Shown here: piece after piece, positions 8,225 through 53,495 of the stretch
How the letters are laid out: each line of letters starts with the position of its first letter
Numbering within the stretch: position 1 is the stretch's first letter
Assembly (NCBI RefSeq): GCF_000426645.1
Contig: NZ_AUFT01000018.1
Span: forward strand, 62,001-126,000
DNA: 64,000 nt
Reading direction: 5' to 3'
Origin: Nakamurella lactea DSM 19367
Lineage (GTDB): Bacteria; Actinomycetota; Actinomycetes; Mycobacteriales; Nakamurellaceae
Position numbers and translations under genes: made by a program
Notes under the pieces: model-generated
The model's input: only the letters and a program-made list of their open reading frames with translations
The model's database searches: none
Told to the model about the DNA's origin: nothing

Positions 8225-8310
8225 CGGGACAACCCCGCTACGCGCACCGGGACAACCCCGCTACGCGCGCCGGGACAACCCCGCTACGCGCACCGGGACA
8301 ACCCCGCTAC
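8225..8310. repeat. Four-copy 23-bp tandem repeat with a 17-base core shared with the nitrobindin gene
   Basis: The core CGGGACAACCCCGCTAC occurs at 8225-8241, 8248-8264, 8271-8287 and 8294-8310, separated by CGCGCAC-like 6-base spacers. The last copy overlaps the stop codon of the minus-strand gene ending at 8307. Each core can fold as a small hairpin (CGGG-loop-CCCG). It sits between two convergent genes, where it could act as a two-way terminator. The same core in reverse complement occurs five times at 52696-52856. Confidence 0.95.
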
Positions 8311-9029
8311 GGCTGGGCGCGCACCAGCAGCAGCGGCTCGGTGTGCCGGTACCAGATCCAGGTGGTGACCGGCCGCGGACGAACGACGCCGTCCAGGGTC
8401 GGCGTCATCGGTTCGCCCGTCACCTGGACGGCCCGGGCCGCGGTGGTGCCCGAGCCGCCGCCGAACACTCCGAACCGGCGACGGCGGGTGACGGTCACCG
8501 TCAGCCCCTTGCTGTCCAGGTCGTCCGGTCTCACCAGCAGCCGGGTCGCCGGGCCGGCCAGCAGCCGGTGTTCGTCGGCGTAGACCAGCCCGGTGATCGG
8601 CGCGATGATGCCCTCGGCCAGCAGCACCCCGCCGGAGTCGTCGCGGAGCAGCGTGGTCGGCGTGGCCACCCCCTGCCCGGCCGTGCGCAGTCCGGCCGGC
8701 CCGGTGGGCAACCGGCGGGCCGCGGTGAACGCGGTGGGCAACCGGCTGACGTAGGCCAGCTCGACCGAGCCCAGCCCGTCGGTCCGCAGCAGCCGCAGGG
8801 CCACCGCGGCCAGATCTGCATCTTCGCCGATCACCAGCACCCGCCCGACCAGCAGCGGATCGATCTGCTTGCCGGGGCGTGGCCCGACCCGGTGTCCGTT
8901 CTGGCAGTCGAGCAGCCGGCCGACCCCGCGGAGCCAGGGCGAGGCGGCCACGGCGGCGGGATCGGCGAAGGCGTCCTCCGACAGGCAGCCGAGTACCGTG
9001 ACGCCGTTCGTCCCCGTCGGTTCTCCCAC
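8307..9029 (-). CDS. Conserved actinobacterial protein of unknown function
   Basis: About 240 residues from a GTG giving VGEPTGTNGVTVLG. I do not recognise a named family. The N-terminal part has SPWLRGVGRLLDCQNGHRVG. The middle has a Rossmann-like strand-turn-helix (GRVLVIGEDADLAAVALRLL) followed by an Arg-rich stretch. The C-terminal half looks beta-rich (GVLLAEGIIAPITGLVYADE; GLTVTVTRRRRFGVFGGGSG). There is no signal peptide or membrane segment. It is divergent from the PAC2 gene. The open frame continues far upstream, so the start is uncertain; the codon bias and lack of stops support a real gene. Its stop lies within the 23-bp repeat array. Confidence 0.6.
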   Translation of the reverse strand: MGEPTGTNGVTVLGCLSEDAFADPAAVAASPWLRGVGRLLDCQNGHRVGPRPGKQIDPLLVGRVLVIGEDADLAAVALRLLRTDGLGSVELAYVSRLPTAFTAARRLPTGPAGLRTAGQGVATPTTLLRDDSGGVLLAEGIIAPITGLVYADEHRLLAGPATRLLVRPDDLDSKGLTVTVTRRRRFGVFGGGSGTTAARAVQVTGEPMTPTLDGVVRPRPVTTWIWYRHTEPLLLVRAQP

Positions 9030-38526: not shown

Positions 38527-41283
38527 GTGAGCGAACCGCCGCGCGATCGCAGCGACGGCGACGCCGGCCGTGGTGAGCACCCCCGCGGCGGCGCTGCCGG
38601 CGACGACGCGGCCGGCTCGGCGCCCTGGGAGCGTCCGCGCAGGTGGAACCAACAGCGGCTGAACGCGACGAGGGTGGACGAGCTGCTGGCCAGGCTCGGG
38701 AACGAGGAAGAGACCGGCGGTCGGCGGCGGCGCCGCCGGGAGGCGGAGGAACGCGCGGCCCTGGCCGGGACCGGTGACGACGCGGGTGACGAGACCGCGG
38801 GTGACGGCACCGCGGGTGACGAGACCGCAGGCGACGGCACCGCGGGTGACGGCACCGCGGGTGACGAGACCGCGGGCGACGAGACCGCAGGCGACGAGAC
38901 CGCAGGCGACGAGACCGCAGGCGACGGGACCGCGGCCGACGGGACCGGGGAGAGCCCGGCCGGCGACTCGGCCGGCGCGGCACCGGACGAGCCGGGTCGG
39001 CGCAGTGAGCGGGCCGACCAGATCTCCGCTGCCGACCTGATCGCCGCCTTCGGCGGCACCGTGCCGGGTCGGCAGACGCCGCCGGACGCGCCGACCCCGA
39101 CCCCGGCGCCGGAGATCCCCGGCGCCAGCGAGACCACCGACATCATCGATCCGCAGGCGGCCGCCGCGCTCAGGAGCCAGGCTGATGCCGCCCCGGCAGA
39201 GCCGCACCCCCCCGCTGCCGACGTGCGACCCCGGTTCGGCGGACCCGGTGTGGTCAGCATGCCGGGGCACGACGACGACGGCACCGATCAGATGCCGTTG
39301 ATCGGCCCCCAGGAAGACATCAGTTCGATCCGCGAGTCGCTGCGCCGTCAGCACCTGACTGCACCGGTTGCCGGAGCCGTCGCCGCCTCCGCAGCCCGCG
39401 AGGACCGCCCGGCGGCATCGCCGGCCGGGACCGGCGTGGGCGGACAGGCGACGACCGGACAGGCGACGACCGGGCACGCGGCGACCGGGCACGCGGCGAC
39501 CGGGCCGCGGCGATCCCGCACCTCAACGCACGGATTCCTCTGGGCCGGCCGGGCGGCCATCGCCGCCGTTTCCGCGCTGATCCTGGTGTTCACCGGCATC
39601 TACTGGAACCTGACCAAGACGGCCGATGCCGACATCGCCGGTAACAGCGGGAACGGTTCCTACGTCCAACCCACCGACACGCACATCTCGACCCCGTCGA
39701 CCAAGTCCAAGGATCCGACGGCCGCGGCAGCGCCGGTCACCTTGTACGAGCCGGAGAACATCCTGCTGTTGGGCTCCGACACCAGGGCCGGGGCAAATGC
39801 CAACTCCGGCAACAGCGACGGCACCCAGAACACCGCGCAGTCGGACACCATCATGATCGCGCACCTGTCCGCCGATCGGCAGAACGTCACCGTCCTGTCG
39901 ATCCCGCGAGACCTGCACGTCACCGCCCCGCACTGCAAGATCTGGAACTCCGAGACCGGCAAACTGTCCGACGAGGAGCAGCCGGTCAACGACACCACCC
40001 AGTGGAAGATCACCAACGCCTACTCGGTCGGCGGACCGGCCTGCTCGGTGAAGGCCGTCCAGCAGCTCACCGGACTGCGGATCGACCGGGTGATCGGCAT
40101 CGACTTCGACGGCTTCAAGTCCATGGTCGACGCGCTCGGCGGGGTCACCGTCAATGTCTGCAAGCCGATCGTCGACGCCGAACTGCAGACGGTGGTACCC
40201 ACCGCCGGCGTGCAGACGATCCGCGGCGACCAGGCCCTCAACCTGGTCAGGGCGCGCAAGGTGATCGGCGATTCGACCGGCGACTACGGCCGGATCCGCC
40301 GCCAGCAGGTGGTGCTGTCGGCCATGCTGCGGCAGCTCACCAGCGCCGGCACTCTGCTCCGCCCCGGCAAGCTCAACGACTTCCTGAAGGCGTTCACCTC
40401 GGCCACCTTCACCGACAACGTCACCTTCGACTCACTGCTGGATCTGGCCCATTCGCTCGGCGATCTCGCGCCGGGCAAGGTCACCTTCTTCACCGTCCCG
40501 GCCCGCCCGAACCCGGTTGACGACGGCGATTCCCAGGTGCTGGTCAAGGACAAGGCCGAGCCGATGTTCGCCGCTCTGGTCAACGACGAACGGCTGCCAG
40601 GCGAGACCGTTTCCAGCAGCAGCGCCGCGACCAAGGGGAGCACAGCGACCAAGAGCGGCACGGCGTCCAAGAGCGCGTCTGCGTCGAGCAGGTCGACCAG
40701 CTCCGAGGCCACCACCTCGACCAGCGCCGCCCCGCAGACGCTGTCCGTCGACCCCGGCTCGATCAAGCTGCAGATCGTCAACATGACCGGGGTGGCCGGC
40801 AAGTCCACCGAGGCGATGGACATCCTGAACGGCTACGGATTCGCCGTCACCCCCGATGACCTGTACCGGCCGGAGGACCAGACGCAGAACGGTCTCACCG
40901 TCGAGTACACCGCCGGCAACCGCGATGCCGCGGTGGTGGTGGCGGCTGCGGTGCCGGGCTCGCAGCTGGTAGCAGTGGACGACACCGGGAGCTACCAGGT
41001 GCGACTGGTACTGGGCACCAGCTACGACGGCAATCTGTCGTCGGTCGCCGTCGGCCAGACCGTGCCGACCCGGCTGCAGAGCACACCCGCGACGTCGCCT
41101 TCGTCGTCATCCGCGACCTCGAACTCGACACCGACACCGACCACCGACACCGGCGGTTCCGCCGCCGGCGCGGGCGTCAACGCCGGTGGCGCCGGGGCGG
41201 CAACCCCGAAGACCACGGCGGCCAGCCCGCTCGACAGCACCGATCTGAACGCGGTGAACGCCGAGCAGACCGGCTGCGTCTGA
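38527..41283 (+). CDS. LytR-CpsA-Psr (LCP) family protein with repeat-rich N-terminus
   Basis: 918 residues, GTG start with AAGGAGG upstream. LCP enzymes attach teichoic-acid-like or arabinogalactan polymers to peptidoglycan. The 330-residue cytoplasmic N-terminus is unusually long and acidic, with ten GDETA/GDGTA pentads (residues about 87-136) and four GQATT/GHAAT pentads (about 306-325). A membrane anchor lies at about 338-358. The LCP domain spans about 410-640 (ENILLLGSDTRAG; MIAHLSADRQNVTVLSIPRDLHV; NAYSVGGPACSVKAVQQLTGLRID; LVRARKVIGDSTGDYGRIRRQQ). A Ser/Thr-rich linker and a LytR_C domain (about 746-840) follow. It precedes the phoU gene. Confidence 0.94.
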   Translation: MSEPPRDRSDGDAGRGEHPRGGAAGDDAAGSAPWERPRRWNQQRLNATRVDELLARLGNEEETGGRRRRRREAEERAALAGTGDDAGDETAGDGTAGDETAGDGTAGDGTAGDETAGDETAGDETAGDETAGDGTAADGTGESPAGDSAGAAPDEPGRRSERADQISAADLIAAFGGTVPGRQTPPDAPTPTPAPEIPGASETTDIIDPQAAAALRSQADAAPAEPHPPAADVRPRFGGPGVVSMPGHDDDGTDQMPLIGPQEDISSIRESLRRQHLTAPVAGAVAASAAREDRPAASPAGTGVGGQATTGQATTGHAATGHAATGPRRSRTSTHGFLWAGRAAIAAVSALILVFTGIYWNLTKTADADIAGNSGNGSYVQPTDTHISTPSTKSKDPTAAAAPVTLYEPENILLLGSDTRAGANANSGNSDGTQNTAQSDTIMIAHLSADRQNVTVLSIPRDLHVTAPHCKIWNSETGKLSDEEQPVNDTTQWKITNAYSVGGPACSVKAVQQLTGLRIDRVIGIDFDGFKSMVDALGGVTVNVCKPIVDAELQTVVPTAGVQTIRGDQALNLVRARKVIGDSTGDYGRIRRQQVVLSAMLRQLTSAGTLLRPGKLNDFLKAFTSATFTDNVTFDSLLDLAHSLGDLAPGKVTFFTVPARPNPVDDGDSQVLVKDKAEPMFAALVNDERLPGETVSSSSAATKGSTATKSGTASKSASASSRSTSSEATTSTSAAPQTLSVDPGSIKLQIVNMTGVAGKSTEAMDILNGYGFAVTPDDLYRPEDQTQNGLTVEYTAGNRDAAVVVAAAVPGSQLVAVDDTGSYQVRLVLGTSYDGNLSSVAVGQTVPTRLQSTPATSPSSSSATSNSTPTPTTDTGGSAAGAGVNAGGAGAATPKTTAASPLDSTDLNAVNAEQTGCV
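38785..38934. repeat. Ten-copy 15-bp tandem repeat in the LCP gene
   Basis: Ten head-to-tail 15-bp units (GGTGACGAGACCGCG and variants) encode GDETA or GDGTA in the cytoplasmic tail. Units differ mainly at GAG/GGC and GGT/GGC positions. All copies are in frame. Confidence 0.95.
39442..39501. repeat. Four-copy 15-bp tandem repeat in the LCP gene
   Basis: Units GGACAGGCGACGACC (twice) and GGGCACGCGGCGACC (twice, with small changes) encode GQATT and GHAAT just before the membrane anchor. Confidence 0.9.
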
Positions 41284-52560: not shown

Positions 52561-52662
52561 ATGTGGCAGGCCATGTTCACCGCGCTGCTGATCGCCCTCG
52601 CCCTGCTGATCGCGGCCGGCGCCGGCTACCTCAGCTACCGGCTTGCCAGGAACGACCGATGA
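52561..52662 (+). CDS. 33-residue single-pass membrane protein
   Basis: A short gene, MWQAMFTALLIALALLIAAG followed by AGYLSYRLARNDR. One membrane segment (residues 5-22) is followed by a basic C-terminal tail, suggesting an inside-facing C-terminus. It starts 11 bases after the LmeA stop and its stop overlaps the ATG of the nitrobindin gene (ATGA), so it is probably translated as part of the lmeA-nitrobindin operon. No family recognised. Confidence 0.65.
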   Translation: MWQAMFTALLIALALLIAAGAGYLSYRLARNDR

Positions 52663-53495
52663 GTGAGCACGAGAGCAAAGACCCCACCCGCCGGCGTAGC
52701 GGGGTTGTCCCGCCCGGCGACCAGGAACGGCGTAGCGGGGTTGTCCCGCCCGGCGACCAGGAAGGGCGTAGCGGGGTTGTCCCGCCCGGCGACCAGGAAC
52801 GGCGTAGCGGGGTTGTCCCGCCCGGCGACCAGGAAGGGCGTAGCGGGGTTGTCCCGGGCAGCGGCGATGCCGCCGTGGCGGCGGCGGCCGCCCGCGCCGC
52901 CTCCACCAGGGAGCGGAACATCGCCGACGCCCCCGAGTTGCCGATCCCGGCCGACACCGCGAATGTCCGGCTCGGGCCGGAGATCCACCCCGACTGTCTG
53001 AGCCTGTTGCCGCTGGTCGGCGTCTGGCGAGGGACCGGCAGCTACGGCAACGAACCCCTGGCTGACGACGGCGCCACCGGCGCCCACCCGGATTTCGGCC
53101 AGCAGATCGTGGTCTCGCACGACGGACGGCCGTTCCTGCGGTTCGAGTCGATCGTCTGGAACCTGCCGCCGGCGATTCGCAGCGACGACGACCCGATGCC
53201 GGCATCGCGCGAGGTCGGCTGGCTGCGGCCCCAGCCGGACGGCTCGATCGAACTGCTGCTGGCGCACGCCGAGGGCCGGGTCGAGGTGTTCTACGGCCAG
53301 GCCCGCTCGCTGACCGCCTGGGCATTGTCGACCGACGGGGTGCTGCGCACGCCGACCGCGACGCCGGTGATCGGCGCCACCCGGCTCTACGGGATCACTG
53401 CCGACGGCCGGCTCGCGTACGTCGAGGAACGCGCCCACACCGACGCCGAGCTGGCCCCGCACTCATCCGCGCTGCTGGAGCGGTTGGTCGGCTGA
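52659..53495 (+). CDS. Nitrobindin-family heme-binding protein with repeat-encoded N-terminal extension
   Basis: 278 residues. The C-terminal 165 residues form the nitrobindin/FABP-like beta-barrel: LVGVWRGTGSYGNEPL (GxWxGxG motif), FGQQIVVSHDGRPFLRFESIVWNL, ASREVGWLRPQPDGSIELLL, HAEGRVEVFYGQ, and LAYVEERAHTDAELAPHSSALLERL. The late His is the likely heme ligand. Known members bind heme and turn peroxynitrite into nitrate. The first 65 residues carry 12-residue repeats SGVVPPGDQERR/SGVVPPGDQEGR (four full, one partial), not part of the usual family. It is convergent with pgm and parallels Rv0813c next to pabC. Confidence 0.88.
   Translation: MSEHESKDPTRRRSGVVPPGDQERRSGVVPPGDQEGRSGVVPPGDQERRSGVVPPGDQEGRSGVVPGSGDAAVAAAAARAASTRERNIADAPELPIPADTANVRLGPEIHPDCLSLLPLVGVWRGTGSYGNEPLADDGATGAHPDFGQQIVVSHDGRPFLRFESIVWNLPPAIRSDDDPMPASREVGWLRPQPDGSIELLLAHAEGRVEVFYGQARSLTAWALSTDGVLRTPTATPVIGATRLYGITADGRLAYVEERAHTDAELAPHSSALLERLVG
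52696..52856. repeat. Five-copy 36-bp tandem repeat inside the nitrobindin gene
   Basis: GTAGCGGGGTTGTCCCG occurs at 52696, 52732, 52768, 52804 and 52840 (starts), with a 19-base second part, CCCGGCGACCAGGAACGGC or the same with GAAGGGC. The two second-part variants alternate, giving a 72-bp higher-order unit. The 17-base core equals the reverse complement of the core at 8225-8310. Each copy can form GCGGG-loop-CCCGC. Confidence 0.96.

Follow-up and report, generated by a model that had tools for sequence, protein, structure and literature searches.

A nitrobindin-family gene of Nakamurella lactea DSM 19367 carries, ahead of its β-barrel domain, an in-frame array of a short DNA element that is dispersed through the genome of this strain. 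We consider it likely, taking the explanation as a whole, that a REP-like element in a tolerant linker was duplicated in tandem and is now translated in frame as a tolerated insert. The gene and its array were analyzed within a stretch of 64,000 nucleotides (the window), where the following features were identified:

52561-52662, plus strand: 33-codon, single-TM-like ORF, the stop of which overlaps the nitrobindin start (ATGA); similar coupled ORFs occur in 13 of the 17 genus genomes, counting this one
52648-52652, plus strand: AGGAA, which may serve as a ribosome binding site and lies 6 bases ahead of the ATG, read from the sequence
52659-53495, plus strand: nitrobindin-family ORF of 278 amino acids (Pfam PF08768, 1.3e-35; 2fwv, 5.7e-49 over residues 57-278)
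52695-52856, plus strand: in-frame array over codons 13-66, in which four 18-bp spacers separate five exact copies of the 18-bp element (TRF, sequence comparison)
52695-52766, plus strand: first 72-bp higher-order unit (E-T1-E-T2)
52767-52838, plus strand: second 72-bp unit, identical to the first
52839-52856, plus strand: fifth, closing copy of the 18-bp element
52857-52898, plus strand: conserved GSGDAAVAAAAARA motif directly 3′ of the array, within which the next start codon is found (GTG at codon 73)
52995-53483, plus strand: β-barrel domain, residues 113-275 (PF08768 match)
8225-8311, minus strand: the window's other cluster of the element, with four exact copies at a 23-bp period, located outside genes except for the TAG stop of a minus-strand ORF (8307-9029)

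The array has the layout E-T1-E-T2-E-T1-E-T2-E, in which E is the 18-bp element and T1 and T2 are spacers differing at a single position (C/G). Units 1 and 3 are the same, as are units 2 and 4, and the 72-bp repeat is perfect. TRF described the array with a period of 36, 4.6 copies, and 97% matches. Translation from the ATG at 52659 yields MSEHESKDPTRR, followed by RSGVVPPGDQE(R/G) units. The original prediction of an array with a 72-bp higher-order unit before a nitrobindin barrel was thus correct in its coordinates and units. Allowing up to three mismatches, the 18-mer was found nine times in the window, each time as an exact copy (five in the array, four at 8225-8311), compared with 0.28 matches expected; none of 100 shuffles reached nine or more. 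The array is not a chance pattern. Its GC3 is 0.74 versus 0.93 in the remainder of the nitrobindin gene, a difference that foreign sequence would be expected to show. Elsewhere in the window, at 38781-38947, there is a tandem array with periods of 15 bp and 45 bp that is unrelated.

The barrel of the ORF scored well above the Pfam cut-off for PF08768 (THAP4/nitrobindin; 123.2 bits, cut-off 25) and below that of the peroxynitrite isomerase equivalog NF045819 in NCBIfam (55.9 bits, cut-off 225). The best solved relative is the nitrobindin-like protein 2fwv of M. tuberculosis, which we take to be Rv0813c and distinct from the heme protein Rv2717c. The GSGD.AVAAA motif and the barrel are common to both proteins, whereas the repeat array remains unaligned and the matched chain starts at query residue 57. 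His268 aligns with the C-terminal histidine of the At1g79260 nitrobindin chain, presumably the proximal heme ligand. At codon 268 (53460-53462), six of the 16 congeners (L039, L040, L041, L043, L045, and L046) encode Tyr or Phe instead of His; because of this exchange, heme binding may not be general across this family. A structure prediction from a 5-sequence alignment reached a mean pLDDT of 36.2, too low to draw on.

The extension had originally been attributed to a dispersed 17-base element. The dispersal was confirmed by 142 exact copies in the 5.82-Mb genome (76 on the forward strand and 66 on the reverse; the reversed-pattern control gave 0), but the length was too short, as the element, CGTAGCGGGGTTGTCCCG, comprises at least 18 bp. 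It usually follows GG (of 69 outermost copies, 61 have G at −2 and 50 have G at −1). All 142 exact copies were recovered in the fetched surroundings and the window, where they group into 58 clusters. Variant forms of the element, with GTGG or GCAC replacing GGGG, for example, form arrays of their own or are paired with the standard form (L075, 5726-5905; L085, near 3030; L089, near 3068). Within the 17 genus genomes, own included, the exact element was found only in the genome of origin, and the relaxed form CGTAGCNNNNTTGTCCCG gave 208 matches there and none in the 16 congeners. Six matches to the relaxed form were obtained in five of 380 other genomes of the order; since the reversed control gave five, the relaxed form is no commoner in these other genomes than chance would predict. 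The absence from all 16 congeners searched suggests that the spread of the element, as seen in the one genome of the species that was analyzed, is confined to this lineage. A spread from viruses was rejected, because the viral collection contained no exact match.

The element carries a GTAG tag at one end, with one core base before it (C-GTAG in 142 of 142 exact copies). Its predicted hairpin has a 4-bp stem and a 5-base loop (−5.0 kcal/mol with RNA parameters; a G.U pair would give a stem of 5), which is shorter than the 5-13 bp stem that serves as a criterion for GTAG-tagged REPs, and for one observed variant of the element no hairpin was predicted. Among neighboring copies, defined by up to three mismatches and a distance within 80 bp, 95 are arranged head-to-tail, 14 are inverted with GTAG outside, and seven are inverted with GTAG inside; inverted dimers, also a feature asked of GTAG-tagged REPs, are therefore present. 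The arrays carry locus-specific spacers of mostly 4-8 bp. Based on gene calls from our own codon-usage script rather than from an annotation, 22 of the 58 clusters lie in unidirectional, 21 in convergent, and four in divergent gaps, while ten are located inside genes and one at a stretch edge; the gaps of at least 20 bp in the same stretches, cluster gaps included, are 122 unidirectional, 42 convergent, and 55 divergent. With the same calls, the clusters lie at a median of 12 bp from gene 3′ ends (n = 64) and of 84.5 bp from 5′ ends (n = 30), and the element supplies the TAG stop to eight called genes (seven via exact copies, one via a one-mismatch copy). High copy number, a mostly intergenic location, and proximity to 3′ ends, which are likewise criteria for such repeats, were all found for the element.

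A REP with its own RAYT had been predicted, and this was rejected: in the assembly (98.27% complete, 27 contigs), the PF01797 search retrieved no RAYT transposase gene, only an interrupted IS605-type tnpA, which is also the sole PF01797 match across the 17 genus genomes. No copies of the element with up to three mismatches were found near this tnpA within the fetched 10 kb. The locus (L054, 1483-3180; C9 near 135.7 kb) is an IS605-type pair of a tnpA with an internal TGA and an open tnpB. RAYT genes may get lost in REP-bearing genomes, according to the available part of Di Nocera et al. (2013; PMC3733652). Because no RAYT was found, the stem has only 4 bp, and head-to-tail neighbors dominate, we refer to the element as REP-like and withhold its assignment as a proven REP. 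By analogy, it might have been dispersed by single-strand transposition via an HUH enzyme, itself not found.

The nitrobindin ATG at 52659 overlaps the stop of the upstream 33-codon ORF by four bases, which supports a translational coupling of the two. Because coupled ORFs of this kind occur in 13 of the 17 genomes, the nitrobindin gene most likely starts at 52659, before the array, and the array is probably translated as protein; the start ahead of the repeats assumed in the original prediction is thereby favored as well. Between this ATG and the GTG at codon 73, no start codons were detected. Initiation at this GTG would turn the array into an untranslated leader, perhaps functioning as mRNA structure, as is suspected for many REPs at gene 5′ ends (available part of PMC3733652). 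We regard such a downstream start as unlikely. It is consistent with the choice of the codon-usage gene caller, which placed the start after the array, with the lower GC3 of the array, and with the fold predicted for one 36-base unit (−12.2 kcal/mol). However, the ATGA-coupled start is common to the congeners, codon 73 is situated inside the GSGDAAVAAA motif conserved in the congeners and 2fwv, and the length of the array preserves the reading frame.

The region between start and SGD motif is of free length in congeners. In the 12 congeners with a coupled start, 12-78 residues separate the start from the conserved SGD motif, compared with 67 in N. lactea, of which 54 are contributed by the array. 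Two congeners have linkers of 76 and 78 residues in genomes without the element, exact or relaxed. A variable-length linker therefore appears to be native to this place; the array would have filled a tolerant linker, growing where length is free, as congeners carry 12-78-residue linkers without the element. The element seems to account for only part of the extension. Evidence against a repeat-derived extension had been specified beforehand as relatives that share the extension but lack a nucleotide repeat, and the two long congener linkers correspond to such relatives in presence and length, but not in sequence.

Ten of the 58 clusters are located inside genes, namely six arrays and four single exact copies. 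Besides the nitrobindin gene, the following genes contain the element:

L100: YggS-like protein, N-terminus, ADDAG-RDNPAT units of 33 bp
L062: PntA-like protein, linker, five units of 24 bp
L063: GH3 enzyme, two units of 24 bp
L057: PaaA/PaaC-like protein, C-terminus, three units of 24 bp
L088: cytochrome bd subunit II (CydB-like), C-terminus, five units of 24 bp
L058, near 3024: MenD, single exact copy
L060: 3-hydroxyisobutyryl-CoA hydrolase-like protein, single exact copy
L070, near 3010: kinase, single exact copy
L080: short-chain dehydrogenase, single exact copy

Of the six frames of the element, five are open, and each of them is used (RSGVVP, VAGLSR, RDNPAT, GQPRY, and GTTPLR). The periods are multiples of three in all six intragenic arrays (17 of 17 steps) and in seven of the 34 other arrays (19 of 78 steps; Fisher p 4.5e-4, counted by arrays), a comparison that is biased in that a frame-breaking array is hardly recognizable as coding and the coding class was assigned by the analyst, in the nitrobindin and YggS cases contrary to the start that the script had chosen. 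It shows that intact genes hold frame-keeping arrays and is no independent proof of translation. Arrays were compared with congeners in the PntA-like and the nitrobindin case, while those of the GH3, YggS-like, PaaA/C-like, and CydB-like proteins were placed by Pfam/PDB matches. The PntA-like array is the best case: it lies between the domains of one ORF, at a place where the proteins of the three closest congeners are shorter by 46 residues. The notion that a repeat was visibly turned into protein thus holds insofar as a dispersed element encodes the extension, yet the nitrobindin array is one of ten intragenic clusters, and this kind of event has already been published (available part of PMC3733652).

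An interpretation of all intragenic copies as insertions was rejected. The MenD copy adds no residues relative to 16 of 16 congeners and the kinase copy none relative to three of four close relatives; judged by these alignments, the single intragenic copies do not look like plain insertions. The copy of the hydrolase-like protein is situated in a loop of variable length, and the dehydrogenase exceeds its three closest relatives by three residues. In the congeners, 7-14 of the 18 bases aligned to the MenD copy agree with the element (mean 10.5, compared with 12.1 for the flanking 18-mers). Chance identity of the single intragenic 18-mers seems unlikely, because even the relaxed pattern is rare elsewhere; convergence, replacement, and conversion would all fit.

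In the preferred reading, a species-specific REP-like element, consisting of the GTAG tag and a short hairpin, would have landed in the N-terminal linker of the nitrobindin-family gene and been duplicated in tandem together with 18 bp of adjoining DNA. A single-base change in one copy would then have given a 72-bp dimer, which would itself have been duplicated. The gene would have stayed in frame because the unit is 36 bp long and only one of the six frames of the element is closed, and the array would be translated as a flexible insert of 54 residues, which is most likely tolerated rather than selected. Such a course most likely represents the mechanism already described in other phyla for REPs inside genes; in this case, the host is an actinobacterium, and the element is unusually short and mostly tandem. 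A selected repeat domain with a function in binding, spacing, or localization could account for the frame being kept across four units, but in unrelated proteins this one element gives rise to five distinct peptides, it is absent in 16 congeners, and the congener linker varies freely in length, all of which renders selection extremely improbable. For the single copies, the element might spread at least partly by overwriting existing sequence with an 18-bp patch, via conversion or template switching, instead of inserting. The exact 18-mers in MenD and the kinase, at unchanged protein length, point in this direction; arrays such as the PntA-like one, however, clearly add DNA, the dehydrogenase copy is accompanied by three extra residues, and convergence is conceivable at single sites in view of the partial matches in MenD of the congeners. 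We therefore rate patch copying as very unlikely. The boldest reading, and in our estimate a decidedly unlikely one, is that of a RAYT-less actinobacterial REP-like family that partly overwrites 18-bp coding patches at unchanged length, as in MenD and the kinase, and is then amplified in tandem with local DNA, by which the 18-mer would have entered proteins in five frames.

On the preferred reading, this genome offers a clear view of a dispersed DNA element turning into protein sequence in several of its genes, where the array periods preserve the reading frame. No report of such an element in Nakamurella and none of GTAG-type repeats in Actinobacteria was found in the literature searched, and an actinobacterial GTAG-type repeat would widen the known range of such repeats. 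It also raises the testable question of how the element moves if it does so without a RAYT. Repeats turned into protein and REPs inside genes have already been published for other phyla, and the phyla named for GTAG repeats in the available part of PMC3733652 do not include Actinobacteria. As described there, GTAG-tagged REPs/REPINs share with the Nakamurella element the GTAG tag, the hairpin, the high copy number, and the dimers, as well as clusters repeating with flanking DNA, the location near gene 3′ ends, and the provision of TAG stops for genes. In contrast, the published stems span 5-13 bp instead of 4 bp, head-to-tail neighbors are rare in published REPs and dominant here, and RAYTs accompany those repeats, unlike the element of Nakamurella, for which none was found. 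GTAG-tagged REPs also occur inside ORFs, where their clusters encode 43-82 residues (available part of PMC3733652). The palindromic elements of Rickettsia, as far as they are covered in the same source, are set apart by their descriptions (a CGTC tag in RPE-4/6 and a greater length of RPE-1, versus the GTAG tag here), but they likewise represent repeat DNA translated in frame within unrelated proteins.
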